Origin: Streptomyces antibioticus
GTDB taxonomy: Bacteria; Actinomycetota; Actinomycetes; Streptomycetales; Streptomycetaceae
Length of the DNA stretch: 64,000 bases
Direction of reading: 5' to 3'
Assembly: GCF_001514065.1 (NCBI RefSeq)
Contig: NZ_KQ948422.1
Coordinates: 1,054,001 to 1,118,000 of the forward strand
Positions within the stretch are counted from its first letter, which is position 1; each line of letters opens with the position of its first letter. The translations under genes and the position numbers were made by a program. Positions 3,138 to 22,603 of this stretch are shown in pieces. The notes beneath the pieces were generated by a model, which ran no database searches, was not told the DNA's origin, and worked only from the letters and a program-made list of their open reading frames with translations.

Positions 3138-4253
3138 TCAGTGCAGGCCGAGGAGGGACTCGGCGGAGAACGGGCGTAGTTCGCCCTCGCGGCCGTCACG
3201 GATCTTGGCCACCCACTCCGGGTCCGAGAGCAGCAGCCGCCCGACGGCCGCGAGGTCGAACTCGTCGCGCTCCATGCACGCCACCAGGCGCTCCAGGGAA
3301 CCGTTCGCCGCGCCCCTGCCCTCGATGAGCGCGCTCAGGAACTCGCTGTCGTCGAGCCCGACCGAGCCGACGGCGACCGTCGGCAGACCGGTCAGCTTCT
3401 TCACCCAGCCCGCCAGCGAGAGGTCCGAGCCCGGGAACTCCGGCAGCCAGAAGCGCCTGGTCGAGCAGTCGATGACGTCGACGCCCGCCTCGATCAGCGG
3501 GCCGAGCATCAGTTCCAGTTCGTCGGGGGTGGCCGCCAGCCGGGCGCCGAAGTCGCCGACGGTCCACTGGGAGATCCGCAGGAACAGGGGGAAGTCGTAG
3601 CCGACCGCGGCCCGGCATGCCGCCACCAGCTCGGCCGGGAAGCGGGTGCGGCCGCCGAGGTCACCGCCGTATCCGTCGGTGCGCGTGTTGATCTCGGGGC
3701 GGAGGAACTGGTCGATCAAGTAGCCGTGTCCGCCGTGCAGTTCGAGACCGTCGAAGCCCAAGCGCCGTGCGTCCGCGGCGGCCTGGGCGAACGCGGCGAC
3801 CACCTCGGCGATGTCGGACTCGGAGAGCGTGCCGGGTCCGGCAGCGGGGACGTGCGGGTCGGGCACGTCGTCGCCCTTGCGTTCCAGGCCGGCGTGCCAC
3901 AACTGCGGGATGATCCGACCGCCTTCGGCGTGGACCGCTTCCACGACCCGGGACCAGCCCGCGAGGGCGTCCTCGCCGTGGAAGCGCGGCACGGTGGTGG
4001 TGGGGGCGGCCGCGGGGTGGCCGACGACCGTGCCCTCGGTGACGATGAGGCCGACGCCGCCCCGGGCCCGGCGCGCGTAGTACTCGGCGACCTCGGGGCC
4101 GGGAACGCCGTCGGGCGAGAAGTTCCGGGTCATCGGCGCCATGACGACACGGTTGGGCAGGCGCAGCCCGCCGACCGCGAAGGGGCGGAACAGCGGGGCC
4201 ACCGCGGGGACGGAGGCGGGCGTTCGAAGGGCGGAGGTGGTGGTACCGGGCAT
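3138..4253 (-). CDS. Old yellow enzyme-type NADH:flavin oxidoreductase
   Basis: A 371-residue FMN-dependent ene-reductase (alkene reductase) with a TIM-barrel fold. Family marks: LFRPFAVGGLRLPNRVVMAPMTRN at the N-terminus (FMN loop), the substrate-binding pair in LELHGGHGYLIDQFL, the NTRTDGYGG signature, and the phosphate-binding end VAVGSVGL. The ATG at 4253 has a GAGGGAG ribosome site; in-frame codons further upstream have no such site. It lies 111 bases downstream of the P-loop ATPase gene on the same strand, with a possible weak hairpin between. It reduces activated C=C bonds using NAD(P)H. In this setting it may tailor the product of the neighbouring synthase, which is inference. Confidence 0.88.
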   Translation of the reverse strand: MPGTTTSALRTPASVPAVAPLFRPFAVGGLRLPNRVVMAPMTRNFSPDGVPGPEVAEYYARRARGGVGLIVTEGTVVGHPAAAPTTTVPRFHGEDALAGWSRVVEAVHAEGGRIIPQLWHAGLERKGDDVPDPHVPAAGPGTLSESDIAEVVAAFAQAAADARRLGFDGLELHGGHGYLIDQFLRPEINTRTDGYGGDLGGRTRFPAELVAACRAAVGYDFPLFLRISQWTVGDFGARLAATPDELELMLGPLIEAGVDVIDCSTRRFWLPEFPGSDLSLAGWVKKLTGLPTVAVGSVGLDDSEFLSALIEGRGAANGSLERLVACMERDEFDLAAVGRLLLSDPEWVAKIRDGREGELRPFSAESLLGLH

Positions 4254-4313
4254 GAGGGCTCCCTCGGATGCGGAGGTCGGACGTGAAGGGCAGGCCGGGC
4301 GGGCCAGGGGGAA

Positions 4314-4330
4314 CTGCGCGTCGCGCGCAG
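4314..4330 (-). terminator. Short hairpin between ATPase and OYE genes
   Basis: A perfect 7-base inverted repeat, CTGCGCG-TCG-CGCGCAG, lies just after the ATPase stop on the minus strand, without a T-run. It could attenuate or end the upstream operon before the ene-reductase, but a stem this short may be chance in GC-rich DNA. Confidence 0.25.
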
Positions 4331-4364
4331 CGGGCACGGTGCCGGGCCGCTCCCCGGCGCGTTC

Positions 4365-5108
4365 TCACGCGGAGCGGCGCTCGGCGGCCTGCGCGGTGCG
4401 GCGGTAGGCGTCGGCGGTCTCCCGGCGGGCCAGTTCCACCGCGCGTTCCAGACTCGTTCGCGCGGGCAGGCCGAAGATGTCGACGATGGTGGCGAGGCGG
4501 TTCACGAGGGTGCCGCCGACGACGTGGTACGGAATGCGCAGCTCGTCGAGCGTGTCACGCAGCAGTTCGTCGGACATGCTGCGGAAGCGCTCGGAGACCG
4601 GTCGGTGCCCGTCGGCGACCAGGTCGAACTCCACCGGCAGATGGATGAAGACGTCGTAGGCCCGGCGCGCGTGGTCCTTCAGCACCGCGCCCAGGGCGTC
4701 GATCACCTCCTCGTAGAAGTCCGGCGCCGCTCCCCCGGTCTCGTAGCCGTCGGTGGGATGGATCCCGGCGCGGACGCGCACCTTGCCATACACCCACTCG
4801 TGCAGGGACGAGCCGTCGGAGACGAAGCCGGCGGGGAGGTGGGACTCGTGCACGGCCCGCTCGGTGAACCGGTGCACGCCCAGCTGGACCAGTTCGGCGG
4901 CCGTGCACTCCTCCAGGCGTTTGCCCGGCAGCACGTCGGCCAGGATCTCGCGCATGGTCCGGGCGTGGGTGCGCGGTACTCCCGTGAGGTGGGCGAGGGC
5001 GATGGTCGTCGTGGTCTTGCCCGTGCTGTACGTACCGGAGATGGCCAGGCGCCGCATGGACGTACGGTTGTGCTCCGCGCGCGCGGGCGCGGGTCCGGTG
5101 CTCGTCAT
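4365..5108 (-). CDS. AAA/P-loop ATPase or nucleoside-type kinase
   Basis: A 247-residue P-loop NTPase. Walker A is GTYSTGKT (residues 25-32) directly after a short beta strand (RLAISG), as in the AAA_28/NadR-kinase-like group. Further on are a TMREIL segment, an FVSDGSSLHEWVYG segment that resembles a kinase lid/acceptor region, and a DVFIHLPVEFDLVADGHRP strand. The ATG overlaps the stop of the AvrD-family gene (ATGA), so the two are translationally coupled. Such proteins often phosphorylate small molecules or are annotated only as ATP-binding proteins. A role as kinase of the AvrD product or its precursor is an attractive guess from context only. Confidence 0.7.
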   Translation of the reverse strand: MTSTGPAPARAEHNRTSMRRLAISGTYSTGKTTTTIALAHLTGVPRTHARTMREILADVLPGKRLEECTAAELVQLGVHRFTERAVHESHLPAGFVSDGSSLHEWVYGKVRVRAGIHPTDGYETGGAAPDFYEEVIDALGAVLKDHARRAYDVFIHLPVEFDLVADGHRPVSERFRSMSDELLRDTLDELRIPYHVVGGTLVNRLATIVDIFGLPARTSLERAVELARRETADAYRRTAQAAERRSA

Positions 5109-6136
5109 CGTCGTCCTCGGTCGGGTAGTCGGTGTGCCACGGAGAACCCTCCGGTGATGCCGTGGAAGGCGTAGCCGAGTTCGCAGACCCGCCAGGTGTC
5201 GTCGGCGATGATCAGCAGGCGGGAGTCCTCGATGCGCGCGTGCACGGGGAAGGCGTGATCCAGTGCCCGCAGTGGCATACGGGTGGACAGCGCTGCCTTG
5301 CGCAGCCAGAGGGTGTCGCTGTCACCGCGGTCGATGCCGTCGAGTTCGTACAGCAGGACCTGGGCGAGCTGGCCCGTCACCGTGATGGCGTCGATCATGG
5401 ACGCGCTGGGCAGGTAGGCGGACTCCAGTCCGGTGGGCCGGATCCGGCTCTCGCCGGGCGCGGGTGTGATGCGGACGGTGGCGTCCACGCGTCCCGCGTC
5501 CCGGTCGACGGTCAGGTCGGTGACCCGCTGGTCGCGGTGGCGGAAGAGGTCGGCGAAGTACCGCCGGCACGGCTCGCCGAGGGCGTCCTCGGCGCTCGGG
5601 TGACGGGCTTCGGCGCGGTCGGTCCGGTAACCGCCCGCCACTTCGTGCTGGACCTCGCACCGGACCTCCATCGAGCCGATCCGGACGTCCAGGCAGGAGA
5701 CCAGCAGGCCGTCGGCGACGCTCTCCGACTCGGCGGGGCGGAAGACGCCGTGCACGGGGATGTCGGCGAGGTCCTCCTGTGGATGGACGCCGGCCCGCAG
5801 GCTGACCTCGCGCAGCCACATGCGGGAGCGGGCACCGGCGTCGAGACCGTAGGCGTGGCCGAGCAGGATCTCGGCGAGCTGCGCGCCCAGGGCCAGGCTG
5901 TCGATGCTGCTGAGGTGCGGGAGGAGCTCGCCGGTGCCCTTCGCGGACCAGTGGGCGGGGTACGTCACGGACGCGTGGGCGGTCGCCTCGGTGGCGTCGG
6001 GCCGGCGGGAGACCCGGATGGTCTCCAGCCGGTGCCGCACTCGACGGAAGCCGGTACCGAAGTAGCGGTGCTCGCCGGGCCCGAGATAGTCGTCGATGGC
6101 GGCGACCATCAGCCGGGCCCCGGCCGGGCCGGTCAC
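5105..6136 (-). CDS. AvrD family protein (double-hotdog, syringolide-synthesis type)
   Basis: A 343-residue protein whose N-terminus (IDDYLGPGEHRYFGTGFRR) and overall length match the AvrD family. Its founder, Pseudomonas syringae AvrD, directs production of syringolides, acyl C-glycoside elicitors formed from a beta-ketoacyl chain and a pentulose. The sequence is internally duplicated: SIDSLALGAQLAEILL...MWLREVSL in the first half and SMIDAITVTGQLAQVLL...LWLRKAALS in the second, consistent with two hotdog units as in AfsA-like enzymes. Both ends overlap neighbours by four bases (ATGA), so it sits in a coupled operon. It likely condenses an acyl thioester with a polyol or similar acceptor (inference). 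Family recognition is from memory of the motif. Confidence 0.75.
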   Translation of the reverse strand: MTGPAGARLMVAAIDDYLGPGEHRYFGTGFRRVRHRLETIRVSRRPDATEATAHASVTYPAHWSAKGTGELLPHLSSIDSLALGAQLAEILLGHAYGLDAGARSRMWLREVSLRAGVHPQEDLADIPVHGVFRPAESESVADGLLVSCLDVRIGSMEVRCEVQHEVAGGYRTDRAEARHPSAEDALGEPCRRYFADLFRHRDQRVTDLTVDRDAGRVDATVRITPAPGESRIRPTGLESAYLPSASMIDAITVTGQLAQVLLYELDGIDRGDSDTLWLRKAALSTRMPLRALDHAFPVHARIEDSRLLIIADDTWRVCELGYAFHGITGGFSVAHRLPDRGRR

Positions 6137-6324
6137 GGGCGCCTCGCGGGCACGGCACGGGCGGGTGGGCGGTTCGCCCAGGGGGCGGCCATCAGCCAGT
6201 GGAACATCTCGTGCGAGGAGAGCAGGAGGGCCGCGGGCGGGAGCAGGGCTGTCGTGCGATCGGCGTCCGAGGGCGGGGGCGGCGGGATGGAGAACCGGGT
6301 GCGGTGTGGGGCGGCGGCGTGCAT
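6133..6324 (-). CDS. Small orphan protein, 63 residues
   Basis: A short gene not recognised as any family. It is supported by an AGGAG ribosome site seven bases before its ATG and by a stop overlapping the AvrD-gene start (ATGA). The protein has a proline run (IPPPPPSD), a hydrophobic stretch (TTALLPPAALLLSS) and then HEMFHWLMAAPW, with an Arg/Pro-rich tail. It lies 31 bases after the acyl-CoA dehydrogenase gene, in the same operon. It could be a small membrane-associated or partner protein, or simply a translational-coupling leader for avrD. Function unknown. Confidence 0.6.
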   Translation of the reverse strand: MHAAAPHRTRFSIPPPPPSDADRTTALLPPAALLLSSHEMFHWLMAAPWANRPPARAVPARRP

Positions 6325-6355
6325 CACGAGCTCCTGTCGGGTCCGCGGGCGGGGG

Positions 6356-8083
6356 TCACAGGCCGAGCAGGGCGTCGAGGTGCCGGTCCCGGGAGAGGAC
6401 CGCGCGGGCGATGCCGGCGTGGTCCGGTCGGTCCGGGGCGTCCAGCTGTGCCCACAGGTCGCGCAGCCGGAACCGGGCGGCCGTGCAGTGGACGTCGGTG
6501 AGCCGCTGGTGGCCGTCCTGTTCGGCCGTGGCGAGGGCGGCCGTGGTGCCCAGCAGTTCGCGGGCGATGCGGCCGAGCAGCAGCAACGGGTACTGCTGGG
6601 AAGCGCGTTGCCGTTCCTTCGCCGCGCGGGTGCGGATGTCATGGCAGGCGGCGGCGAAGCGGGCCAAGTCCTCGTGCAGGTCGTGCAGGTGACGGGCGTT
6701 GCGCGGGAAGAAGTTCTCGATGGCCGGCAGCACGCCCGGCACGGCACCGTCGCGGAAGCCGCCGGCCGGCTCGGTGTCCGCGAGATGTGTGAGGAGGGCC
6801 TGGGCCGCCTGGACGTCGACCAGGTCGTCCACGCCGCCGGCGGTGCGCAGCATCCTGATGTCCCGGTAGGCCCGCTCCAGCGGCACGGGCGGTGCCCCGC
6901 GCCGGCGTTTGGAACGGTCGGTCTCCAGCCCTTCGCCGCCCAGCAGCGAGACCGTACGGTCCACGACCCTGGTGGCCGCCTCGGTGCAGAAGTTGCGGGC
7001 GAGCATGCGCTCGAACCAGCGGTCGCCGGGGGCCGGGGCGCCGAGGCTCCAGCGCACCACGGCGTCCATGGCGCGTACGTCCGCCGCGTTGGCGGCGAGG
7101 GTGCGCTGGATGAGGTCGTACTCCCCCAGGCCCATGCCGTCGACGCGTCGGCGCGCGGTGAACTCCCTCGACCAGCGAAGGCAGTTGCGGGCGAGGGCGA
7201 GTACGGGGGCCGCCTGGATGAGCAGCCGCGCGGTCAGGAAGGCCGAGGTCCGTTCCGGGGTGCGGCGGGGGTCGCCCTGGGCGACCGTGACCACATGGTC
7301 CCTGGGGACCGTCACCCCGTTCAGCCGCAGCCAGCCGTTGGGCAGGCCCCTTACGCCCAGGTACTCCAGGCCGGCCCGGACCTCGAAGCCGGGAGTGCGG
7401 GTGTCCACGACGGCGAGGCCGACGCGAGGGCCGTCCTCGTCGCGGACGGTCACGGTGACGCCCAGGAGGTCGGCGACGGGTCCGTTGCTGATGAACAGCT
7501 TGTCGCCGGTGAGGACGTACGCCGAGCCGTCGGCGGTGGGAACGGCGGTCGTCCGCGGCGACTGGTTGGCCTGTCCGGCGGGTTCGGCGTCGGCGAAGCC
7601 GGAGATCATGCCCTCGCGGCTGCGGCGCCGGATCAGATCGCGCAGTGAGCCGTGCGGCAGTGTCGGCAGCAGTGAGGTGGCGACGCCGATGCCGTTGTGG
7701 ACGGCGAGCATGAAGCCGATCGCCACGGAGCGGGAGGCGACCGCCTCCACGGTCCGGAACAGTGCGTACGGCGTCAGCCCGAGCCCGCCGAGGTCCTCGC
7801 CCGTCGCGAGCCGGAAGGCGCCGAGGTCGCGCAGCCGAGCGATCACGAACGGCGGGATCTCTCCCTCCCGGTCGATGGCGTCGGGGTCGACCTCGGTGTC
7901 GAGGAAGGCCAGGAGCCGCGCCACCTCGGGCGGCTGTTCGACGCTCCCGGGCACGGACGGGTCGCGCCAGGCGTCCCAGGACGGGTCACCGCCGGTGAGG
8001 GCGGTCAGGAAGGTCGCCGCGGGCTGCGCAGTGGGCGCTGCGGGCTGCGTCGTGGGGCGCTGTGCGAAGAGCTGGACGGTCAT
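6356..8083 (-). CDS. Acyl-CoA dehydrogenase family flavoprotein
   Basis: A 575-residue protein of the acyl-CoA dehydrogenase superfamily, longer than the usual ~380 because of an extra C-terminal helical region (as in ACAD9/VLCAD-like forms). Visible marks: LRDLGAFRLATGEDLGGLGL and a helical N-domain, the mid-domain flavin region ALTGDK-like YVLTGDKLFISNGPVADLL, and the C-domain TRVVDRTVSLLGGEGLETD. It would oxidise an acyl thioester (CoA or carrier bound) to an enoyl form using FAD. Its stop is 31 bases before the small gene, and it begins one base after the Gfo/Idh/MocA stop, so it belongs to one operon. In this context it may desaturate the product chain. Confidence 0.85.
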   Translation of the reverse strand: MTVQLFAQRPTTQPAAPTAQPAATFLTALTGGDPSWDAWRDPSVPGSVEQPPEVARLLAFLDTEVDPDAIDREGEIPPFVIARLRDLGAFRLATGEDLGGLGLTPYALFRTVEAVASRSVAIGFMLAVHNGIGVATSLLPTLPHGSLRDLIRRRSREGMISGFADAEPAGQANQSPRTTAVPTADGSAYVLTGDKLFISNGPVADLLGVTVTVRDEDGPRVGLAVVDTRTPGFEVRAGLEYLGVRGLPNGWLRLNGVTVPRDHVVTVAQGDPRRTPERTSAFLTARLLIQAAPVLALARNCLRWSREFTARRRVDGMGLGEYDLIQRTLAANAADVRAMDAVVRWSLGAPAPGDRWFERMLARNFCTEAATRVVDRTVSLLGGEGLETDRSKRRRGAPPVPLERAYRDIRMLRTAGGVDDLVDVQAAQALLTHLADTEPAGGFRDGAVPGVLPAIENFFPRNARHLHDLHEDLARFAAACHDIRTRAAKERQRASQQYPLLLLGRIARELLGTTAALATAEQDGHQRLTDVHCTAARFRLRDLWAQLDAPDRPDHAGIARAVLSRDRHLDALLGL

Positions 8084-8084
8084 C

Positions 8085-9206
8085 TCATACCTCCCGGACC
8101 TGGCTCGCCGCGGCCTGGTCGGCGGAGCGGACGGTGTCGAGGAGCCGGTGCAGTCTCAGGCCGGTCTCGAAGTCGGGCACGGTGTGCGAGCCGCTGCGGA
8201 TGTCGTGGGCCAGCGCGGTGTAGAGCTCCGCCACGTTGCGCACGGCGGTGTCAGGCACGTCCACGGCGGTCCGGCAGTCCGGCGGCACCGCCACCTCCTG
8301 GCGGCCGTCGGTGGCGGCGCTCTTGTCCTCGTACAGGCGGATGTCGCTGATCTGGATGCCGTGTCCCGCGGCGGGCCCTTCGGAGACGAGGGTGAGGGTG
8401 CCGCGGGTGCCGGAGAACTCCAGGCGGGTGCGGGCGTGTCCGGCCTTGCCGTCGTGGACGTGCACCGACACGGGGACGCCGGTGACCAGGAACCCGCCGA
8501 TGACGATGTGGTCGGCGCTGGTGACGCCGACGCTCTCCGCGGTGTCGGACACGGTCAGCCGGGGCTGCTGGACGGAGAGGGACGCCGAGAGCCTGGCGAC
8601 GGGTCCGCACAGGAACTCCAGCAGGTCCAGGGTGTGCCCGCCGGCGACCTCCAGTGTTCCGGCGCCGTTGCGCTGGTCGAGGGTGTAGATGGCGTCGGAG
8701 GTGACGGTGCCGCCGGCTCCCTTGGCGCGGGTGGCGAGGACGTTGACCGCGGTGACCCGGCCGATGGCGCCGGAGGTGAGCAGCCGGCGGGCGTGGCGGG
8801 CGGCGGGCGCGTGCCGTGCCTGGAGGCCGACGGCGGCGTGGACGCCTGCCTGCCGGGCGGCCTCGGCCAGCACCTCGGCCTCCTTGGTGGTGCGGGCGAG
8901 CGGCCATTCGCAGTAGACGTGCTTGCCGGCCTCCAGGGCGGGCAGCACCAGGTCGGCGTGGTCCGGGGTCTTCACCGCGACGACCACCAGGTCCACCTCG
9001 GGGTGGCCGCTGAGCCGGGCCGGGTCGGTGAACGCGTGGGCGGCTCCGTAGTGTTCGGCGGCGCGGCGGGCGCTGCCGGCGCGTGTCGTGGCGACCGCCG
9101 TCAGCTCGTACTCCGGCAGGGCCGCGAGGGAGGGCAGGTGGGCCGTCCTGGCCCAGCCCCGTTCGGTACCGGCGCCGATGACACCTACACGAATCGGTTC
9201 GGTCAT
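8085..9206 (-). CDS. Gfo/Idh/MocA family NAD(P)-dependent oxidoreductase
   Basis: A 373-residue dehydrogenase with an N-terminal Rossmann fold (RVGVIGAGTERGWARTAHLPSL), the dinucleotide-binding acidic-to-basic loop region TTRAGS, and the family motif EAGKHVYCEWPLA, in which the usual EKP/EWP element appears as EWP. The C-terminal alpha/beta domain contains VAGGHTLDLLEFL with the likely catalytic His. The ATG has GAGGAAG four bases before it. This is the first gene after the hairpin that follows the large synthase. These enzymes reduce or oxidise ketones on sugars, inositols or imines; here it could act on the amino-ketone or on a sugar-like partner (inference). Confidence 0.88.
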   Translation of the reverse strand: MTEPIRVGVIGAGTERGWARTAHLPSLAALPEYELTAVATTRAGSARRAAEHYGAAHAFTDPARLSGHPEVDLVVVAVKTPDHADLVLPALEAGKHVYCEWPLARTTKEAEVLAEAARQAGVHAAVGLQARHAPAARHARRLLTSGAIGRVTAVNVLATRAKGAGGTVTSDAIYTLDQRNGAGTLEVAGGHTLDLLEFLCGPVARLSASLSVQQPRLTVSDTAESVGVTSADHIVIGGFLVTGVPVSVHVHDGKAGHARTRLEFSGTRGTLTLVSEGPAAGHGIQISDIRLYEDKSAATDGRQEVAVPPDCRTAVDVPDTAVRNVAELYTALAHDIRSGSHTVPDFETGLRLHRLLDTVRSADQAAASQVREV

Positions 9207-9248
9207 GGTTCTTCCTCGTCTGGGGAGGGACGGGGGCGAGTGCGGGAC

Positions 9249-9299: not shown

Positions 9300-9313
9300 C
9301 GTGCGGGGAGGCG

Positions 9314-12300
9314 TCAGGAGGACAGCGCGGCCAGTTCCTCGCCGAGGATGCGCACCGCGGTGGTGATCTGCTCCTCGGTGTGCTCGGAGGTGATGAAGAA
9401 CCGCAGCCGGGCGAGGCGTTCCTCCACCGCCGGGTGCAGGATCGGGTTGGCGCTGACACCGCGGGCGTAGAGGCGGTCGGCCAGGAGGAGGGCCTTCGCG
9501 GAGTCGCCGGTGATCGCGGGCACGACCGGGGTGCCCTCGCTGGTGCCCACGTCGACGCCGGCCTCGGCCGCGAGCCGCAGGAACAGGGCCGCGTTGTCGT
9601 GCAGCCGGGTGACCCGCTCGGGCTCCTCGCGGATCAGCCGGAGGGCGGTGAGAGCGGCCGCTGCGGACGCCGGCGGCAGGCCCGCGCTGAACACGAAGCC
9701 CGGCAGGGTGTACCGGAAGTGCTCGATGAGCTCGTGCCGTCCGGCGACGTAACCTCCGCAGCTGGCGAGCGACTTGGACAGGGTGCCCATCCACACGTCC
9801 ACGTCGTCGGGGTTGACGCCGGAGAACTGGGCCATGCCGCCGCCGGTCTTGCCCATGACGCCGATGCTGTGGGCCTCGTCCACCATGAGCAGGGCGTCGT
9901 GGCGCTGCTTGACGGCGATGAGCGCGGGCAGGTCGGCGGTGTCGCCGTCCATGCTGTACACGCCCTCCACCACGATCAGCACCCTGCGGTAGCCGTCGCG
10001 CACATGGCTGAGGATGCGGTCGAGGGCCACCAGGTCGTTGTGCGGGAAGGGCTGGCGGGCGGCGCCGGACTGACGGCAGCCCTGGATGATGCTGTCGTGC
10101 GCCAGGGCGTCGTGCAGGATCAGGTCCTCGGGGCCCATCAGGTGCCCGATGACGGTGACGTTGGTGGCGTGCCCGCTGACCAGGCTCACGGCGTCCTGGG
10201 CGCCGACGAGTTCGGCGAGTCCGCGGTCGAGTTCCACGTGCAGCGGACGGTTGCCGGACAGGATGCGGGCGGCGGACACCGAGGAGCCGTAGCGCTCGAC
10301 GGCCTCCTGGACGGCCGTGGCGACCGCCGGGTGGCCGGACAGGCCGAGGTAGTTGTAGCTGGAGAAGGAGATCAGCTCGCGGTCGGCCACCCGCGTGGTG
10401 TCGCGGATGGTGCCCTCGTGCGGCAGGAAGTACGGGTTGACGACGCCGGAGGACTCGATGCTCCGCTTGCGCTCCAGGGAGGCGAGGACCTCGGGGAACA
10501 CCCGGACGTCGGCGGCCGCGCCGCGGTCCTGCCCACCGCGGGGCTGCTGGACGGGTGCCGGGGCGGCGAGCGCCGGCACCGGTTCCGCGACCGGCGGCGG
10601 GGCGGCGGTGGGAGGCGTCGCCGCCGTCGCACCGAGGCGGTCCCCGAGGGTGGCGACCAGGTCGCCGATCGTGGCGATCTCCATCATCTCGGCGGCCTTC
10701 ACCTGAAGCTGCGGCCACCTGCCGCGCAGCCGGGTGGCCAGCTCGGCCAGCATGATCGAGTCGAATCCGAGGTCGGTGGCGAAGGCGTGCTCGGGCCGCA
10801 GGAAGTCCTCGGGGTAGGCACTGACCCGGGATATCCCGGTGTACACGGCCGCCCGCACCTCGTCGGTCGCGACCTGGGCCGGTGCTGCGGCCGGTGCGAG
10901 GGAGGGGGCCTCGGCCACGTGTCCGGCACGGGCGGCTTCGGGCAGCTGCTCCTGCACCGGGGCCTGGACCGGGGCGATGATCGTGGGGACGGCTGTGGAC
11001 GGCAGTGTCCTGCCTGCCGGGTCGAAGGACTGCAGCAGGGACACCTGGGCGTGCAGGAACTCGATGAGACCGCTCATCCTCGGCTCTCCGATCGGGGTGG
11101 TGGCGAGGGGGGAGGGAATGACTGTGCGCAGGCTCGGCTCGGGGGTGCGGGCGACAAACGGGGCGGGTGCGGCCGGGGTGGCGATCACCGTGCGGGGCTG
11201 GGGGCGGCCGGTGCCGGTACGGACGGTGTACACGTCCGTCCGCAGCGGCGACGGCGGCAGGGACAGCAACCGTCCCGTGTCGGCGGGGAACAGCACGGCG
11301 GGGTCCAGCGGGACCCCGGCCACCGCGAGCCGGCCGAGCGCGGTGAGGAAGGCGCGGCCGTCGTCGGACCGGTTCGTCGTCAGGGCCACGAGTTGCAGGT
11401 CCGCTCCCGCGGCGCTGCGCCGGGCCATGCGCAGGAGGGTGTCGCCGCCGTAGATCTGCACGAGGAAGCGGGCGCCCGTCGCGGCGACGGACCGGACCGC
11501 GTCGGTGAACCGTACGGGGGCGGTGTTGTGACGGGCCCACAGGTCCTTGATGTCCTGGGTTTCCCGGCATTCCCGACCGCTGACGCCGGAGATGAAGGTG
11601 CAGGCGGGCTCGGTCAGCGGCAGGCCCGCGATCGTCTCCGCCATCACCTCGTCGGCGGCGGCGACCAGGGGTGAGTGGAAAGCGTGCGACACCCGCAGCA
11701 GGACGGCGGCGACGCCCTGCTCGGCGCAGTGGGCGCGCAGCGCCTCCACGTTCTCGAGGCCGCCGCTGAAGACGAGTTGGCCCTCGTGGTTGTAGCAGGC
11801 GGGCCAGACTCCCTCGACGGCCAGGGCGAGGCGCTCGGCCTCGGCGGCGGGGGCCTGTACGGCGAGCATGGCGCCGGTGCCGGACGGTACGGCGGCGGCC
11901 AGTGCCGCACCCCTGCGCGTCATGAACCTGACAGCATCGGGTGCGGTGAACGCCCCGGCCGCGACCGCGGCGGGGAACTCGCCGACGCTGTGGCCGACCG
12001 CGACATCGGGCCGGATGCCGCAGGCGGCGAGCAGTTCGACGGTGGTGGCACCCGTGATGCCCAGGCCCGGCTGGCACATGTCGGTCACCATCAGGGCGGC
12101 CTGCGCGTCGCTGTCGTCGGCGTCGTGCGCCTCCCACAGCAGTCCGGGCAGCGCGGTGGGAACCGTCTCGGACTCCTCGGCGGTCAGGGCGCCCAGTTCG
12201 GCCGCGCGGTGGGCGGCCGAGGGGAACCGCCGGACCAGGTCCGCCAGCATGCCGGGCCGCTGCGAGCCCTGTCCCGGGAAGGCGAAGGCGATCCGGCGCT

Positions 12301-14329: not shown

Positions 14330-15055
14330 TCAGGCCTGTGCGCCGGCCCCGGCGGGACGCAGGCCCACCTGCTGGGCGAGCGCGACGACCGCCTTGCCGA
14401 AGAGGGCGTCGCGGTCATCGATGACACGGTTGAACTGCCCGAAGACCTCGAAGCTGATCAGTCCGAAGAGCTGCGCCCAGGCGGCGGCCAGGCGGGGCGC
14501 GACCCGTCCCGGCAGGGTGCGGTCCGGCTGGTCCAGCAGTTGACGGATGTCCTCGGCGACGACCGAGTCGCAGTCCGCCGCCGGGAGGTCCGGCTCGGCG
14601 AGGACGCCGGCGTCGTGGGCGGCCTCCGCCACCGCGAGCAGGACCAGCGCGACCCGGGAGGCCGGGCCCACGGTGTCCTGCGGTGCGGCATAGCCGGGCA
14701 CGGGTGAACCGTAGATCAGCGCGTATTCGTGGGGATGCTCGAGCGCCCAGGCGCGCACGGCGCGGCAGACGTCGGCCCAGGCCCGCAGCGGGTCGGTGGC
14801 GCCCGCGGCGGCGCGGGCGCTCTCGGCGGCCTGCCCGATGGCGTCGTAGGCATCGACGATGAGGGCCGTCAGCAGATCGTCCCGGCTGGGGAAGTAGCGG
14901 TAGAGGGCCGATGAGACCATGCCCAGCTCACGGGCGACCGCGCGCAGCGAGAGCCGCGCCGCGCCCTCGGCGGCGAGCTGTCTGCGGGCCTCGCCCTTGA
15001 TGGCGGCCGCCACCTCGGCGCGGACCCTCTCCTTGGCTCCTTGGATGACATCCAT
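14330..15055 (-). CDS. TetR family regulator, divergent from MMPL exporter
   Basis: A 241-residue repressor. The helix-turn-helix (about residues 25-60) reads LSLRAVARELGMVSSALYRYFPSRDDLL. The C-terminal part (HEYALIYGSPVPGY, AWAQLFGLISFEVFGQF) belongs to the TetR_C_13/WHG-like domain group found in Streptomyces regulators beside exporters. The ATG at 15055 is preferred over in-frame codons further upstream because those would fall in the operator array. It is divergent from the MMPL gene, and the gap contains several copies of AGAGCA-G-TGCTCT, so it very likely represses the exporter and itself, responding to the exported compound or an intermediate. Confidence 0.9.
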   Translation of the reverse strand: MDVIQGAKERVRAEVAAAIKGEARRQLAAEGAARLSLRAVARELGMVSSALYRYFPSRDDLLTALIVDAYDAIGQAAESARAAAGATDPLRAWADVCRAVRAWALEHPHEYALIYGSPVPGYAAPQDTVGPASRVALVLLAVAEAAHDAGVLAEPDLPAADCDSVVAEDIRQLLDQPDRTLPGRVAPRLAAAWAQLFGLISFEVFGQFNRVIDDRDALFGKAVVALAQQVGLRPAGAGAQA

Positions 15056-15075
15056 GACGACAGTGTGCCACCTGC

Positions 15076-15197
15076 GAGAGCACTGCCCAAGCATCGGAGC
15101 AGTGCTCTCTCAATGAGAGCAGTGCTCTTGCACTGAAGCGGTGCTCGCTGTAAAACTACCCTCGACAAAGAGCAGTGCTCTCTGACCAGAGCACTTG
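15076..15197. promoter_or_regulatory. Iterated TetR operator array
   Basis: Two perfect 13-base palindromes AGAGCA-G-TGCTCT occur at 15116-15128 and 15169-15181. A third at about 15096-15109 (GGAGCAGTGCTCTC) has one outer mismatch. Degenerate or half copies lie at 15076-15088 (GAGAGCACTGCCC), 15135-15147 (GAAGCGGTGCTCG) and 15188-15197 (AGAGCACTTG). All sit between the divergent TetR and MMPL genes, so they are the obvious binding sites of that TetR protein. The spacing of about 20 bases between some copies suggests cooperative binding of several dimers. Confidence 0.8.
15128..15156 (+). promoter_or_regulatory. Candidate promoter of the MMPL-nitroreductase operon
   Basis: TTGCAC (15128-15133) and TAAAAC (15151-15156) are separated by 17 bases, close to a vegetative sigma-70-type (HrdB) promoter. 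One operator copy ends on the -35 box and another (15169-15181) covers the predicted start site, which fits repression by steric block. The rest of the leader to 15374 is about 200 bases long, with no other signal recognised. Confidence 0.5.
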
Positions 15198-15374
15198 TCA
15201 CGCCAGTGTTTTCCCAGGTCAGTGGCGAGTCGAACGCAATCCGTCCGCAGATCCGCGGCAGTCGCTCCCCCGTCCCACTGCTCCGCCCCGCACCACCGCT
15301 CTCCCCGATCCCCCCATCCAGCCCCGGCCGCACGCTGGCAGGCCCGCGGGCACAGCTGAAGAAAGGACCTCAGC

Positions 15375-17636
15375 GTGATGGCCACTTCGGTGCCGTCCGG
15401 GAGCGACCGAAAGAAACGTCGCGGCCCCTGGTTCACCCTTCTTGCCGGACTCCTCCTCCTACTGGTCGCCGGCGCCGCGAGCTCCGGGGTGCTGGACCGT
15501 CTCAAGTCGGGCGGCTTCGACGACCCCGGCTCCGACTCCGTGGCCGCCGCCGAGGCGCTGGAACGCTCGTTCCCCGACAGCCAGCCCAACCTCGTCATCC
15601 TGGTCAAGGACCCCAAGGGCGGGCCCGGCGGCGCCGCGGCCCGCGCCGAGGCCGAGACCATCGGCAAAACGGTCTCCGGCACCGCCGGCACCCGGGTCGT
15701 CGCCTCCTACTTCGACAGCGGCGACAAGAGCCTGCGCTCCGGTGACGCGGCCCTGATCCTCGTCCGGGTCGACGGCGACGAGAACGAGAGCATGCGCACC
15801 GCCGACACGCTGCACGAGAAGCTGTCGGACCCGGACGGTGCCGTCTCGGTCTCCTTCGGCGGCATCACCGCCATCAACAACGACATGAACAAGCAGGTCG
15901 AGAAGGACATCGTCGCCGCGGAGAGCATCGCGATCCCGATCACCCTGCTGCTGCTCGTGATCGTCTTCCGCGGTCTGATCGCCGCTCTGCTGCCGATGCT
16001 CCTGGCCGTGCTCACCATCGTCGGAGCGCTCGCGGCCGTCAACGTCGCCGCGCAGGTCACCGACGTCTCGGTGTTCGCCGTCAATCTGATCACAGCGCTG
16101 GGACTGGGTCTCTCCGTCGACTACAGCCTGCTGATCGTCACGCGCTACCGGGAGGAACGCGAGGCCGGCCGCGACAACGCCACCGCCCTGCGCATCACCC
16201 GCGCGACCGCCGGCCGCACGGTGGCCGTCAGTGGCGCCGTGGTCGGTGCCGCCCTCGCCACGCTCCTCGTCTTCGACCAGTACTTCCTGCGCTCCTTCGC
16301 GCTGGCGGGCATCGCCGTGGTGCTGTGGGCCGTCCTCGGATCGCTGTACCTGCTGCCCGCGTCCCTGGTCCTGCTCGGCGACCGGATCGACGCCCTCGGC
16401 CGCCGCCGGCGCACGCGGCGCGCCCCGGCCGCCGACACCTTCTGGGGGCGGATGGCCGGCCTCGCCTTCCGCCGCCCCGCCCTGCTCGCCACCCCCGTGA
16501 TCGCTCTGCTGCTGCTCATGGCGGTGCCCTTCGCCGACGCCCAGTTCGGCGTACCGGACGAGCGGGTGCTGCCCAAGGCCACCGAGAGCCGCATGGTCAC
16601 GGAGGCCGTGCGCGACGACTTCGGCGTCGGCGACGACCGCGCGCTGAACGTGGTCTCCGAGGACTGGAAGGGAACCGACGCCGATCTCGCGCGCTACTCC
16701 ACGGACCTGTCCGAAACCGCCGGGGTCACCCGCGTCGTCAGCGCCGCCGGGGTCTTCCGCGACGGCTCGCGGCTGAGCCCGCTCGACCCGCGCACGGCCG
16801 CTTCCTTCCGGGACGGTGACGCGGTCCGCCTCCAGGTGCAGACGGACGTGGTGCCGTACTCCGAGCAGGGCGGTGACCTGGCCCGCGCCGTCCGAGCGGT
16901 CGATCCGCCCGGCGGCGGGAAGGTCCTGGTCGGCGGTCAGGCGGCCCAGCTGGTCGACATCACCCACTCCATCGCCGGCAAGCTGCCCCTGGCCATGGCC
17001 CTGATCAGCATCCTCAGCCTGCTGTTCCTGTTCCTGCTGACGGGCAGTGTGCTGATGCCCGTGAAGGCGCTGCTGTTCAACGGCCTGAGCCTCGTCGGCA
17101 TCCTCGGCGTCGCGGTCTGGGTCTTCGTCGACGGCCACCTCTCCGGCCTGCTCGGCTTCACCCCGTCGCCGCTCGCCGTGTCGATGCCGGTCCTGGTGTT
17201 CTGCATCGCCTTCGGCCTGTCCATGGACTACGAGGTCTTCCTCGTCGCCCGCATCAAGGAACGCTACGACCGCACCGGCCGGCTGGAGGACTCCGTACGG
17301 GAGGGCCTCGGCGCCAGCGGCCCCGTCATCACGGCCGCCGCCGCCATCCTCGCGGTGTCCTTCTTCGCCATGCTCACCTCGGGCGTCTCCCTGATCAAGA
17401 TGTACGGCATGGCCACCGGCCTCGCCATCGTGCTGGACGCGGTCTTGGTGCGCGGGGTGCTGGTGCCGGCCTTCATGCGGGCCGTCGGCCCCTACAACTG
17501 GTGGGCCCCGGCCCCCCTCAAGGCGTTCCACCGCCGGTTCGGCATCAAGGAGTCCGCCGAGGTCGAGCCCGCCCCGGCAGCGACCCCGCACCTCACTTCC
17601 GCCACCGAGCCCCAGACGACGGGATCACGGCCGTGA
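15375..17636 (+). CDS. MMPL family RND transporter
   Basis: A 753-residue membrane transporter with the duplicated RND-type layout: an N-terminal helix (WFTLLAGLLLLLVAGAASS), an extracytoplasmic domain, a bundle of about five helices (from IPITLLLLVIVFRGLIAALLP), then a repeat of the same after residue ~370. The MMPL signature GLGLSVDYSLLIVTRYREE and its second-half counterpart FGLSMDYEVFLVARIKE carry the Asp-Tyr pair used in proton coupling. Either GTG 15375 or the next codon, ATG 15378, can be the start; AAAGGA is placed for both. Its stop overlaps the next gene by GTGA. Likely role: export of the compound made by the cluster, or of a lipid. Confidence 0.92.
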   Translation: MMATSVPSGSDRKKRRGPWFTLLAGLLLLLVAGAASSGVLDRLKSGGFDDPGSDSVAAAEALERSFPDSQPNLVILVKDPKGGPGGAAARAEAETIGKTVSGTAGTRVVASYFDSGDKSLRSGDAALILVRVDGDENESMRTADTLHEKLSDPDGAVSVSFGGITAINNDMNKQVEKDIVAAESIAIPITLLLLVIVFRGLIAALLPMLLAVLTIVGALAAVNVAAQVTDVSVFAVNLITALGLGLSVDYSLLIVTRYREEREAGRDNATALRITRATAGRTVAVSGAVVGAALATLLVFDQYFLRSFALAGIAVVLWAVLGSLYLLPASLVLLGDRIDALGRRRRTRRAPAADTFWGRMAGLAFRRPALLATPVIALLLLMAVPFADAQFGVPDERVLPKATESRMVTEAVRDDFGVGDDRALNVVSEDWKGTDADLARYSTDLSETAGVTRVVSAAGVFRDGSRLSPLDPRTAASFRDGDAVRLQVQTDVVPYSEQGGDLARAVRAVDPPGGGKVLVGGQAAQLVDITHSIAGKLPLAMALISILSLLFLFLLTGSVLMPVKALLFNGLSLVGILGVAVWVFVDGHLSGLLGFTPSPLAVSMPVLVFCIAFGLSMDYEVFLVARIKERYDRTGRLEDSVREGLGASGPVITAAAAILAVSFFAMLTSGVSLIKMYGMATGLAIVLDAVLVRGVLVPAFMRAVGPYNWWAPAPLKAFHRRFGIKESAEVEPAPAATPHLTSATEPQTTGSRP

Positions 17637-18655
17637 CCGAGACCGACAGCACCCCCACCTACCCCCTCGACCGCCTGCGCAGGGTCGCCGACCTGGCGGC
17701 CCGGGCGGCCAACGCCCACAACACCCAGCCCTGGGACCTGCGTTACCGCGCCGACCATGTCGAGCTGGGCTGGCGCGCGGAGTACGCGCTGGGCCCCAGC
17801 GACCCCTCGCACCGCGACCTCAGGCTGTCGCTGGGCACCTACCTGGAGACCCTGCTGATCTGCGCCGCCGAGGCCGGGATGGCGCTGCGCTTCGAGCCCG
17901 ACTACGACGCCGGCGCCGCCCGCGTGGGGCGGATCGTGCCCGGCGAGTGGCTCGAGCCGAGCACCCGGTCGGCGGCCGACGTCGAGGCCCGCCGTGTGTG
18001 GCGGGGCGCCTGGACCTCGCAGCAGGTGCCGCGGGCGGTGGTCGAGCGCTGCCTCAAGACCGCCGAGGAGGCCGGATTCCGGGTGGCCGTGGTCCCCACG
18101 GACGCCGCCCGGCCGCTCCTGATCCGCGCCTACCACTGGTTCTTCGGCCACGCCGGGATCGCCCGGGAGCTGCTGGCCTGGGCCAGGCTCTCCCCCCGCC
18201 ACCCCGACTACCGGCAAGACGGCCTCAACGACGTGATGCTGGTCCTCAACAAGGCCGAGGCCGCCGCCATGCGGACGTTCTTCGCCCCCGCGGTGTACCG
18301 GGCGCTGCGGCCGCTGGGGCTGGTCCGGCTGCTGACCACCCTGTCCTCCAGCGCGACCAGCGGCGACGGCATCGTCATGGTCGTCCTCGGCCGGGGCGAC
18401 GATCCGGCCGGCGAGGTCGAGGCCGGGCGGCTGGTGACCCGGCTGTGGCTGGACCTGTTCCGGGACGGGATCTACGTCCATCCGCAGAGCCACGTCATCG
18501 ACTGCCCCGACACCGTCGGCGAACTGGGCCGGCTGTGCGGGGCTCAGGGCGGCGAGCGGCCCCTGGTCTTCTTCCGGGTCGGCTATCCCACCGTCGATCC
18601 CGCGGCACGGCCCCGCCACCCGCGTCGCGGACAGACGGCGGCAACGGCCTCCTGA
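17633..18655 (+). CDS. Nitroreductase-like (Acg family) FMN oxidoreductase
   Basis: A 340-residue protein with two nitroreductase-like halves. The N-terminal motif ARAANAHNTQPWDLRY is the FMN-phosphate contact typical of the family, and the C-terminal region has TLSSSATSGDGIVMVVLG and a late HPQSHVID segment. The length and the NTQPW motif resemble the actinobacterial Acg/Rv2032-type proteins, some of which hold FMN without clear catalytic activity. GTG 17633 overlaps the MMPL stop (GTGA), so the two are coupled. It may oxidise or reduce the cluster product, or detoxify it. Confidence 0.8.
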   Translation: MTETDSTPTYPLDRLRRVADLAARAANAHNTQPWDLRYRADHVELGWRAEYALGPSDPSHRDLRLSLGTYLETLLICAAEAGMALRFEPDYDAGAARVGRIVPGEWLEPSTRSAADVEARRVWRGAWTSQQVPRAVVERCLKTAEEAGFRVAVVPTDAARPLLIRAYHWFFGHAGIARELLAWARLSPRHPDYRQDGLNDVMLVLNKAEAAAMRTFFAPAVYRALRPLGLVRLLTTLSSSATSGDGIVMVVLGRGDDPAGEVEAGRLVTRLWLDLFRDGIYVHPQSHVIDCPDTVGELGRLCGAQGGERPLVFFRVGYPTVDPAARPRHPRRGQTAATAS

Positions 18656-18669
18656 ATTCCTTCCCTCCC

Positions 18670-18725
18670 GAATTCCCTCCGGTCGCCCGGGCCGGCCAGG
18701 CACCGGGCGACCGGAAGGGGAATTC
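18670..18725 (+). terminator. Long hairpin with GAATTC ends after the nitroreductase gene
   Basis: Inner arms CCGGTCGCCCGG (18679-18690) and CCGGGCGACCGG (18703-18714) pair perfectly. The flanks GAATTCCC (18670) and GGGGAATTC (to 18725) extend the stem. It lies just past the stop of the MMPL-nitroreductase operon and should act as its terminator. The GAATTC flanks may have a second, regulatory role (see findings). Confidence 0.65.
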
Positions 18726-18863
18726 CCGTTGAATTCCCGTCGACACACCGATCAGTGAATGCGACAGCAGAGAAACCCGAAGGAGATCCCCGCCCGCAGC
18801 ACCGCATCCCATCGCGAACGCCAACCGCCGTTTCGCGCAGAACGAGAAAGGGGATCACGTCGA

Positions 18864-19706
18864 ATGTCCTCCCCCCACGCCCCGCCGGACCGCTCCGTCG
18901 TCGAACGCACCCTGGGTGTCCTGGGCGCCTTCGACGCCACCCATGTGAGCCTGACCGTCAGCCAGATCAGCAGCCGGTCGAAAATACCCGTGGCCACGAC
19001 CTACCGCATTGTCTCGAAACTCGTCTCCTGGGGAGCCCTGGAACGCGCGGAGGACAACAAGTACACGATCGGCCTTCGCCTGTGGGAGGTCTCCCAGCTC
19101 GCTCCCCGGCGTGCCGACCTCCGCGCGGCGGCCGTCCCCGCCATGTTCGACCTGCGCTCCACCACCCGCCGCGCCGTCCTGCTCTCCACCCGGGACGGCA
19201 TCGAGGGAGTCTGCCTGGAGAGCGTCTCCGGCAGCGCCCGGCCCCTGCACCGCTCGTGGTCCCGCGGGCACCGCTTCCCCCTGCACGCCACGGCTTGCGG
19301 CCGGGTCCTCCTCGCCGCTGCCGGCAGCACCGTCCAGGACGAGCTCTACGGCGGCGAGCTGCGGCCGTACACGAAGCGCACCGTCCACACCCCCGCCGCC
19401 CTGCGCGACCTCGTCGCCCACACCCGGCGCCAGGGATACGCCGTCACCGACGGCGAGTTGCTGGACGGCGTGGTGGAGATCGCCGCGCCGATCCACGGCG
19501 GCGACGGAGCCGTCCTGGGCGCCATCGGTCTGATCACCGTGGGCACGGCGTCCACCGCTGTCCCGGACGCCGTCGGCCATCTGCTGGCGGCCGCCCGGCG
19601 GGTCTCCCGGTCCCTCGCCGACGCCCCCGCACCCGGTGGCAACGCGGTGCCGTCCCCCCGCACGGCCCGGTCCCGCATGCACCGGCCCCAGGGCGCCTGC
19701 GCCTAG
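18864..19706 (+). CDS. IclR family transcriptional regulator
   Basis: A 280-residue regulator. The N-terminal winged helix-turn-helix (about residues 8-70) has VVERTLGVLGAFD, then SLTVSQISSRSKIPVATTYRIVSKLVSWGALER. The effector domain includes PLHATACGRVLLAA and GLITVGTA. ATG 18864 follows AAAGGGG with about 10 bases spacing; an upstream in-frame ATG would add an Arg-rich extension lacking homology. Its DNA-binding part is clearly paralogous to the IclR gene at 22604. It lies directly upstream of the ACP and ketosynthase genes on the same strand and probably controls them. Confidence 0.9.
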   Translation: MSSPHAPPDRSVVERTLGVLGAFDATHVSLTVSQISSRSKIPVATTYRIVSKLVSWGALERAEDNKYTIGLRLWEVSQLAPRRADLRAAAVPAMFDLRSTTRRAVLLSTRDGIEGVCLESVSGSARPLHRSWSRGHRFPLHATACGRVLLAAAGSTVQDELYGGELRPYTKRTVHTPAALRDLVAHTRRQGYAVTDGELLDGVVEIAAPIHGGDGAVLGAIGLITVGTASTAVPDAVGHLLAAARRVSRSLADAPAPGGNAVPSPRTARSRMHRPQGACA

Positions 19707-19825
19707 CACCCGGCGGCCGGACTCCCGCCAAGCCGGCCGCCGTTCGTCCCACCCGTCCCCGTCCCCACTCTCCCCCGACACCGGCTTGCCGACGGCAACG
19801 CCGTCCCGCTCACAAGGAGACGCAC

Positions 19826-20071
19826 ATGAACGCCGTACAGGAAGACATCCGCAGCGGTCTGGCCGACATCGTCAACGAGATCGCCGGGGTGCCGCACGAG
19901 GATGTGCTCCCCCACAAGACCTTCGCCGACGATCTCGACGTCGACTCCCTGTCGATGGTCGAGGTCGTGGTCGCGGCGGAGGAGCGGTTCGGGGTGACCA
20001 TCCCGGACGAGGCGGCCGGCCGTATGAAGACCGTGAGCGACGCCATCGACTACATCCTCGCCCAGCACTGA
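19826..20071 (+). CDS. Acyl carrier protein
   Basis: An 81-residue discrete ACP. The phosphopantetheine site is Ser41 in DDLDVDSLSMVEVVVA, followed by the helix AEERFGVTIPDEAA, a sequence close to fatty-acid type AcpP rather than type II polyketide ACPs. AAGGAGA lies five bases before the ATG. It is followed 19 bases later by a FabF-type ketosynthase, copying the acpP-fabF order of the primary fatty acid operon but without fabD and fabH here. This suggests a duplicated pair dedicated to a secondary product, perhaps supplying the acyl chain for the PKS-AOS enzyme (inference). Confidence 0.93.
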   Translation: MNAVQEDIRSGLADIVNEIAGVPHEDVLPHKTFADDLDVDSLSMVEVVVAAEERFGVTIPDEAAGRMKTVSDAIDYILAQH

Positions 20072-20090
20072 CGACTTGGGAGTCATCCTC

Positions 20091-21353
20091 ATGCAACCGA
20101 TTGATCGCAAGGTGGTCGTGACCGGCGTCGGAGCGACCACACCGCTGGGCGGTGACAGCACCACCACCTGGCAGGGGCTCATGGCGGGCCGCTCCGCCGT
20201 ACGGCTGCTGACACACGACTGGGCCGCCGACACCCCGGTGAAGATAGGCGCCCAGATCGCGGTGGAACCCGCCGACTGCCTGTCCAGGACCGAGGCCCGC
20301 AAGCTGGACCGCTCCGCCCAGTTCGCGCTGATCGCGGCGCGCGAGGCGTGGGCCGACGCGGGCTTCACCGCACCGGCGGGTGAGGACACCTCCGTCAACC
20401 CCGACCGGCTCGGTGTGGTCGTCGCCTCCGCCATCGGCGGTGTGACCTCACTGCTCCAGCAGTACGACATCCTCCGGGACCAGGGCGTCCGCAAGGTGTC
20501 TCCCCACACCATCCCGATGATGCTGCCCAACACGCAGGGCGCCAACGTCGGACTGGCCCTCAACGCCCGGGCCGGGGTGCACTCGCCCGTCAGCGCGTGC
20601 GCCTCGGGCGCCGAGTCGGTCGGATACGCCATCGACATGATCCGCACCGGCCGGGCCGACATCGTCGTGGCCGGTGGCACGGAGGCGGCGATCCACCCGC
20701 TGAACATGGCCGGCTTCGGCAACATGATGGCCATGTCCAAGCGCAACGACGATCCGGCCGCCGCCTCCCGGCCGTACGACTCGGCCCGCGACGGCTTCGT
20801 CATCGGCGAGGGCGCCGGTGTGGTCGTGCTGGAGTCGGCGGAGCATGCCCGGCGGCGCGGCGCCCGCGTCTACGCCGAGGCCGTCGGCCAGGGGCTCTCC
20901 TCCGACAGCCACCACATCACCCAGCCGGAACCGACGGGCCGCGGCATCGCCGCCGCGCTCACCGCGCTGCTGGACTCAAGTGACCTCACAGCGGCCGAGG
21001 TCGTGCACGTCAACGCGCACGCGACATCGACGCCGCGGGGCGATGTGGCCGAGGTGAAGGCCCTGCGCAAGGTCCTCGGCGACGCCATGGACCACGTGGC
21101 GGTGTCGGCCACGAAGTCCATGACCGGGCATCTCCTCGGCGGCGCCGGCGGGGTGGAGACCGTGGCGACGGTCCTGGCCCTGCATCACCGGCTCGCCCCG
21201 CCGACCATCAACCTCGACGACCTCGACCCGGAGGTCGAGGCCGACATCGTGCGCGGCGTACCACGGGCGCTGCCCGACGGGCCGATCGCCGCCGTCAACA
21301 ATTCGTTCGGCTTCGGTGGTCACAACGTGGTGCTCGCCTTCCGCACGGTGTGA
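20091..21353 (+). CDS. FabF-type 3-oxoacyl-ACP synthase II
   Basis: A 420-residue condensing enzyme with the Cys170 (VSACASGAES), His310 (NAHATSTPRGD) and His347 (KSMTGHLLGGAGG) triad. The sequence is very like the primary FabF of streptomycetes, with a conserved C-terminus NNSFGFGGHNVVLAF. GGGAG precedes ATG 20091; an upstream TTG is less likely. It probably elongates ACP-bound chains with malonyl-ACP. Because a housekeeping acpP-fabF pair normally lies in a fabD-fabH-acpP-fabF operon, this copy is best explained as an accessory paralogue. Confidence 0.93.
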   Translation: MQPIDRKVVVTGVGATTPLGGDSTTTWQGLMAGRSAVRLLTHDWAADTPVKIGAQIAVEPADCLSRTEARKLDRSAQFALIAAREAWADAGFTAPAGEDTSVNPDRLGVVVASAIGGVTSLLQQYDILRDQGVRKVSPHTIPMMLPNTQGANVGLALNARAGVHSPVSACASGAESVGYAIDMIRTGRADIVVAGGTEAAIHPLNMAGFGNMMAMSKRNDDPAAASRPYDSARDGFVIGEGAGVVVLESAEHARRRGARVYAEAVGQGLSSDSHHITQPEPTGRGIAAALTALLDSSDLTAAEVVHVNAHATSTPRGDVAEVKALRKVLGDAMDHVAVSATKSMTGHLLGGAGGVETVATVLALHHRLAPPTINLDDLDPEVEADIVRGVPRALPDGPIAAVNNSFGFGGHNVVLAFRTV

Positions 21354-22466: not shown

Positions 22467-22603
22467 AGGACTTCCGGAATCAACCTTTCTCGCATCTCTT
22501 GAAGGTTTAATCATAGGGGTGGCCGCCCGTCGCCAGATCCCATCTGGCGTTCGCATGAGTCGAGTTCACTCGCCTTGTGCGCACACGAAAGGAACAAGAC
22601 GGG

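Follow-up and report, generated by a model that had tools for sequence, protein, structure and literature searches.

The 64,000-nucleotide window analyzed here, from the genome of Streptomyces antibioticus, contains a gene cluster whose product is probably an exported small molecule of an undescribed kind. At its center is a conserved, mostly tightly spaced run of minus-strand genes for a polyketide synthase (PKS) that ends in an alpha-oxoamine synthase (AOS), a Gfo/Idh/MocA oxidoreductase, an acyl-CoA dehydrogenase (ACAD) of the EpxF type, a small open reading frame (ORF), an AvrD-family protein, an AAA_28 P-loop protein, and an Old Yellow Enzyme (OYE)-family oxidoreductase. TetR and MMPL genes that diverge from each other lie nearby, and a pair encoding an acyl carrier protein (ACP) and a FabF-type ketosynthase (KS) lies farther on. 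Pfam scans, gene calls, and motif reading confirmed this gene content, which an earlier sequence-only reading had placed at positions 3138-21353. We tentatively favor, at slightly less than even confidence, the view that these genes act together as one modular biosynthetic cluster, the small-molecule product of which is exported.

Conservation and extent of the cluster

The spacing of the genes agrees with the coupled operon described in the sequence-only reading. Gaps of 107, 1, and 31 bp separate the PKS from Gfo, Gfo from ACAD, and ACAD from the small ORF; the small ORF-AvrD and AvrD-AAA_28 junctions are overlaps (-4 bp each), and 27 bp lie between AAA_28 and OYE. We searched 392 genomes of the genus, 396 genomes of the phylum, and plasmid records. 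Compared over 40-45 kb, the gene order from OYE to a second IclR gene was identical in three of three other genus genomes (G350, G097, and G222), and this order includes the OYE, TetR/MMPL, and ACP-FabF genes, each recognized by Pfam as the earlier reading had named them. Across these three loci, the AOS was the best-conserved part of the block (93-96% identity), and AvrD identity ranged from 68 to 85%. A shorter stretch from S. acidiscabies also keeps the order from PKS to OYE.

The start at 3138 and the genes proposed between the two ends held up, but the end at 21353 did not, since the conserved block continues to the end of the second IclR gene at 23371. An Acg-type flavin mononucleotide (FMN) protein and IclR and AraC regulators sit inside this block. 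Neither the M1 peptidase gene beyond OYE nor the PucR gene beyond the second IclR gene had a match in G350, G097, or G222, which suggests that the cluster ends at 3138 and 23371. The closely related S. sp. GKU 895 retains the M1 and TetR neighbors beyond OYE (91% and 94%).

The pairing of a PKS-AOS with AvrD, which had been assigned to one cluster, is conserved but rare, being found in 4 of the 392 genus genomes and in S. acidiscabies. These four genus genomes (G000, which is the window's own, G350, G097, and G222) are those with an AOS at 93-100% identity. AvrD occurred in 27 genus genomes (26 above the family cut-off) and, within the phylum sample, in the window's own genome only, contradicting the expectation that the pair would be common to many actinomycetes. 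Plasmid records also hold AvrD from Pseudomonas, Nocardia, Arthrobacter, and Glutamicibacter; single hits came from Nocardia, Arthrobacter, Glutamicibacter, and Cellulomonas. The distant AvrDs of Cellulomonas citrea and an Actinomycetota metagenome-assembled genome (38% and 34%) had no AOS match within 6.8 and 13.3 kb, respectively. In keeping with the claim that no described pathway has both, we found no pathway combining the two among the literature matches listed, from searches that mostly excluded subscription papers and included none on exactly that pair alone.

By name, the carriers are S. griseorubiginosus DSM 40469, S. regalis NRRL 3151, S. acidiscabies NRRL B-16521, S. niveiscabiei NRRL B-24457, and GKU 895. 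The S. niveiscabiei and GKU 895 contigs stop just before AvrD, with the PKS region outside them, and the PKS is present in all three named carriers whose contigs reach far enough. Among the literature matches listed, no product of the named host strains could be linked to the cluster. An EryCIII-like glycosyltransferase gene adjoins OYE in S. niveiscabiei (L120:2933-4207), suggesting that the product of this variant is glycosylated.

Predicted enzymes and their relatives

Pfam resolves the PKS (9314..13993, minus strand) into KS (12785-13984), acyltransferase (AT; 11312-12286), ACP (PP-binding; 10646-10834), and AOS (Aminotran_1_2; 9347-10378) domains. Counted from a GTG start at 13993, which is conserved together with its upstream block in G350, G222, and G097, the active-site residues named in the sequence-only reading, Cys204, Ser669, Ser1079, and Lys1407, land exactly in the motifs DAACSS, GHSVGE, GFDS, and TLSKS. 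The AT carries a HAFHS motif, which we take to be of the malonyl type. The AOS has the pyridoxal phosphate (PLP) lysine, Lys1407, and an AOS-family sequence, and its best solved relatives are serine palmitoyltransferases. The protein starts at the KS in the Pfam scan and has no loading domain of its own. An AOS also releases a PKS chain in the SgaAB sphingolipid system of Pseudomonas, although that AOS is a separate protein with serine palmitoyltransferase activity in a two-gene cluster (PMC12134224).

The sequence-only reading had invoked RedL-like logic, and this fits loosely. The KS-AT-ACP-AOS order of prodiginine RedL is shared, and it matches the back half of the L124 protein, which we call RedL-like from its domain order and which scanned as A-ACP-KS-AT-AOS, where A is an adenylation domain and the ACP before the AOS is unscored. 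However, the window protein lacks the A and ACP in front, its AOS is only 48-52% identical to RedL-like matches (n = 17), and its pocket motif, SAARILSG, differs from the SASRLLSG and SATPLLFG of relatives. Fifty other genus matches, in 43 genomes, are nearer (58-64%). For the ACAD, moreover, the RedW and PigA models give no more than 51 and 40 bits, versus 358 bits with EpxF. Given these differences, we think it hardly probable that the cluster encodes an alkylpyrrole pathway of the prodigiosin/RedL type with AvrD and the ACAD as tailoring enzymes.

AvrD was absent from the 18 fetched neighborhoods of the 58-64% matches. In 7 of these 18 (L100-L106), an MMPL gene adjoins a PKS of the KS-AT-AOS type (one Pfam-scanned), forming a minimal, uncharacterized PKS-AOS/export pair. 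Pfam scanning of these other loci covered L101, which is KS-AT-AOS, and L112, which is KS-AOS without an AT, with the ACP unscored in both; PKS motifs were read in the loci other than L101, L106, L110, and L112. At L112:10094-17506, the 1158-aa KS-AOS protein adjoins an epimerase-family protein and an amidase, and short KS-AOS matches like it occur in L107, L109-L111, and L113-L116.

The acyl-CoA dehydrogenase of the sequence-only reading (6356..8083, minus strand) does belong to the ACAD family, but it is actually an EpxF-type beta-keto-acid enzyme, which changes the predicted chemistry. Its top PDB match is EpxF (9gn5; 358 bits, covering residues 53-560 of 575), followed by a match at 88 bits, and the homology is nearly full length, C-terminal part included. 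If the numbering of the EpxF paper is set one below the chain index, as anchored by His183/Gly185, EpxF Arg273 and Ser406 align with ACAD Arg286 and Ala415. The R273A variant of EpxF no longer decarboxylates and the S406A variant gets no further than the enone (PMC12624316), and MatG has been assigned a vinyl ketone product trapped by nucleophiles (PMC5719088). The Arg is kept in all five loci compared (window, G350, G097, G222, and S. acidiscabies), where the Ser406 site reads A, A, A, V, and A. Since the Arg is kept and the epoxidation Ser is replaced by Ala or Val, we predict that the ACAD is a decarboxylase-desaturase without epoxidation. This replacement sets it apart from the epoxyketone synthases EpxF, EpnF, and TmcF and from MatG, as does a block without a nonribosomal peptide synthetase. 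EpxF-type ACADs (E up to 1e-70) were found in 23 of the 392 genus genomes.

AvrD (5105..6136, minus strand), a predicted beta-ketoacyl/pentulose condensing enzyme, matches PF05655 over positions 4-331 of 331, at 300 bits versus a curated cut-off of 25, and the 10.1-Mb genome has no other AvrD. Ten residues (W63, S64, K66, H74, D79, H164, Q256, R270, W277, and H335) are invariant in 32 of 32 aligned rows, window included. Its predicted structure is a double hotdog that resembles acyl-thioester hotdog enzymes and LnmK, and this model suggests that AvrD enzymes are double hotdogs. No PDB sequence relative appeared at E up to 5, and the absence of AfsA from the fold matches listed tells nothing either way. 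Among the literature matches listed, none linked AvrD to hotdog proteins except PMC11195616, whose table has a separate hotdog thioesterase. The AvrD logic of the earlier reading is backed by the proposal that MmyD is a beta-keto-ACP/pentulose condensing enzyme in methylenomycin biosynthesis (PMC12593393) and by a second AvrD-dependent cluster, for which a figure legend names sphydrofuran (PMC11195616).

The AAA_28 protein (4365..5108, minus strand; PF13521, 58 bits), a probable small-molecule kinase, is the sole match in its genome, and a search of the PDB at E up to 1 gave no sequence relative. Similar genes lie near AvrD in 23 of the 27 fetched AvrD stretches, suggesting that AAA_28 is the usual partner of AvrD.

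In gene content, a plasmid-borne cluster of S. anthocyanicus (L064) corresponds to that for methylenomycin; we take it to be methylenomycin-type and assign its mmy names by gene order. The Gfo/Idh/MocA oxidoreductase of the window (8085..9206, minus strand) is 55% identical to that of L064, AAA_28 is 55% and 48% identical, AvrD is 38% identical, and OYE (3138..4337, minus strand; PF00724, 197 bits) is 57% identical over 373 aa to the OYE at the MmyE position; both clusters have an ACP. The companion set of AAA_28, Gfo, and OYE is present in the window, with a weak control for OYE. The best-scoring Gfo paralogue in the window's own genome reaches 32% (39% over a short piece), and an OYE paralogue there (L140, C8:137819-138931) is 58% identical to the cluster OYE, so that only Gfo and AAA_28 are informative for kinship. 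The same paralogue may mark another related cluster. Unlike the window, L064 has a KASIII, a HAD phosphatase, an F420-type reductase, an LLM oxidoreductase, a thioesterase, and mmf-like hormone genes, and no AOS match. Whereas methylenomycin-type clusters combine AvrD with a KASIII (MmyC) and an ACP (MmyA), the KASIII had no match in L049, L050, L054, or L119, which have ACP-FabF instead. The sphydrofuran cluster of S. ambofaciens (GI-9) resembles the window in its AvrD-dependent small metabolites, ACP, and ketosynthases, but Table 2 of that paper lists neither an AOS PKS nor an AAA ATPase (PMC11195616).

Proposed pathway and alternatives

Our best model is that AvrD gives rise to a butenolide or enone, that the AOS supplies an amino-ketone either coupled to it or formed alongside it, and that MMPL exports the product. 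FabF with the free ACP, and the KS-AT-ACP of the PKS, would each yield a beta-ketoacyl thioester, presumably unreduced because the scanned proteins of the block matched no KR-type family. At the AOS, the PKS chain would be released as it condenses with an amino acid in a PLP-dependent, decarboxylative reaction, and the result would be a 1-amino-2,4-diketone or the corresponding cyclic pyrrolinone. AvrD, as a double-hotdog acyl-ACP enzyme, would condense the other beta-ketoacyl group with a pentulose to a 2-acyl-butenolide, as proposed for MmyD, and AAA_28 (as a kinase), Gfo, and OYE would act on the portion derived from the sugar in the manner of methylenomycin biosynthesis, where MmyE is placed in exomethylene formation (PMC12593393). 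The ACAD would decarboxylate and desaturate a beta-keto acid to an enone with no epoxide, as proposed for MatG, and the product would leave via MMPL and be sensed by TetR. Any joining of the amine half to the butenolide/enone half is speculative. We think unlikely a new assembly logic in which AvrD yields a pentulose-derived beta-keto lactone, the ACAD with its serine-to-alanine change converts the ring-opened beta-keto acid of this lactone to an electrophilic enone, and the amine freed by the PKS-AOS adds to that enone to give an N-containing methylenomycin-like scaffold.

Several observations weigh against this model. The pentulose reaction of MmyD is itself only proposed (PMC12593393), the window AvrD falls in a different clade from mmy-type AvrD, and the mmy-type KASIII, HAD, F420-type reductase, LLM, and thioesterase are unmatched in window-type loci. 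Orthology of the OYE to MmyE is weakened by its 58% own-genome paralogue. The probable kinase role of AAA_28 has the family match as its sole basis, and its structure model was set aside (pLDDT 39.3, pTM 0.33). The serine-to-alanine change in the ACAD is not unique to the cluster, because it is common among distant homologues too (7 Ala and 1 Ser in the eight read, with the Arg kept in five). Finally, genome G389 carries a PKS-AOS (AOS 85%), preceded about 690 bp upstream by FabF (75%), and is among neither the 27 AvrD matches nor the 23 EpxF-type matches. A direct search of G389, whose contig stops about 0.5 kb after the AOS, found no AAA_28 (with a query that recovers the window's copy) and no Gfo above 35%, and no ACP was seen by eye next to FabF. 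Given that this genome has PKS-AOS and FabF without the AvrD half, the AOS half can stand by itself.

The converse arrangement occurs in G271 (L051:3608-11200), where an ACP, a FabF-type KS, MMPL, AvrD, AAA_28, and then TetR_C_33 stand in line. The KS and ACP sites are intact (the KS Cys and both His sites were read), and the 20-kb stretch has no AOS or KASIII, which suggests that FabF-ACP, in place of a KASIII, can supply AvrD enzymes. Because G389 and G271 carry the halves separately, the window cluster resembles two units fused together. The same two genomes, together with the seven loci where MMPL adjoins a PKS-AOS, would also fit two products under one regulon: an exported AOS amino-ketone/pyrrolinone and a separate AvrD butenolide-type molecule (antibiotic or hormone), merely co-inherited. 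We find this possible but doubtful, given that all four end-to-end loci hold both halves in one one-strand run, with Gfo and ACAD between them, and that the window gaps are only -4 to 107 bp. Whether the halves are unrelated elsewhere thus has a mixed answer, as they are apart in G271 and G389 and together in the four end-to-end loci.

We also considered whether AvrD draws its beta-ketoacyl chain from the PKS, competing with or replacing the AOS, with FabF-ACP making only the PKS starter. The position of FabF directly before the PKS-AOS in G389 and the missing loading domain of the PKS are consistent with this idea. However, the AOS is covalently attached, intact, and the best-conserved part of the block, so a bypass is unlikely, and ACP-FabF is paired with AvrD in G271; we regard this alternative as improbable.

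Regulation, export, and other genes

The TetR (TetR_C_33) regulator (14330..15094, minus strand) is kept in three of three other loci, and the MMPL exporter (15375..17636, plus strand) matches PF03176 at 272 bits. The region between them (15095..15374) has repeated AGTGCTCT/AGAGCACT half-sites, possible TetR operators, and a perfect 22-bp inverted repeat (15174-15195) that is intact as such in the window only. Exact half-sites occur in the window, G350, G097, and G222 (one only); none were found in the S. acidiscabies or G389 stretches or upstream of the PKS. Because they are missing from S. acidiscabies and G389, product-controlled export via TetR is merely plausible. A sigma-70 promoter scan found none, and terminator-like sites were no more frequent than chance.

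Beyond MMPL lies an Acg/Rv3131-like FMN oxidoreductase gene (17501..18655, plus strand), which is kept in all four loci, overlaps the MMPL gene end, has an uncertain start codon, and scores 135 bits with NF047509, under its cut-off of 199. A Pfam-recognized IclR regulator (18759..19706, plus strand) precedes the discrete 81-aa ACP (approximately 19826..20071, plus strand; PF00550), which has a DVDSLS site. The FabF-type KS (20076..21353, plus strand) has SACAS, NAHATST, and GHLLGGAGG sites and scores 493 bits with TIGR03150, slightly below its cut-off. The AraC regulator (21477..22556, minus strand) is kept in three of three loci and, at a different position, in S. acidiscabies and S. niveiscabiei, and the IclR regulator that ends the conserved block (22577..23371, plus strand) is conserved at the compared loci.

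The small ORF (6133..6324, minus strand) is probably real and encodes 63 aa, with a variable Pro-rich N part and a [HY]EMFxxxMAAP core. This core is in frame at 5 of the 6 AvrD-linked loci covering it, the frame being lost after HEMF in GKU 895; all six aligned relatives carry [HY]EMF and five carry MAAP, the six including one directly after the G389 PKS-AOS. No such motif was found within 500 bp after the AOS in 18 other loci, the small protein had no NCBIfam match, and a 204-aa ORF containing it had no Pfam match. Pairwise codon differences in the core (five sequences) were 68 nonsynonymous versus 24 synonymous, and this excess, with the GKU 895 frameshift, points to limited constraint. The protein could be an adaptor or precursor peptide tied to the PKS-AOS clade of the window.

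The cluster is small and testable, and it merges AvrD, oxoamine-synthase, and EpxF-type chemistry, three kinds that antibiotic-type pathways usually carry separately. According to the 2025 methylenomycin paper, MmyG, K, Q, X, and Y represent open mid-pathway steps (PMC12593393), and the suggested double hotdog fold of AvrD, its AAA_28 partner, and FabF-ACP feeding bear on the steps left open there. The naturally altered residue at the position of EpxF Ser406 would offer a direct test of the choice between enone and epoxide in the EpxF family.

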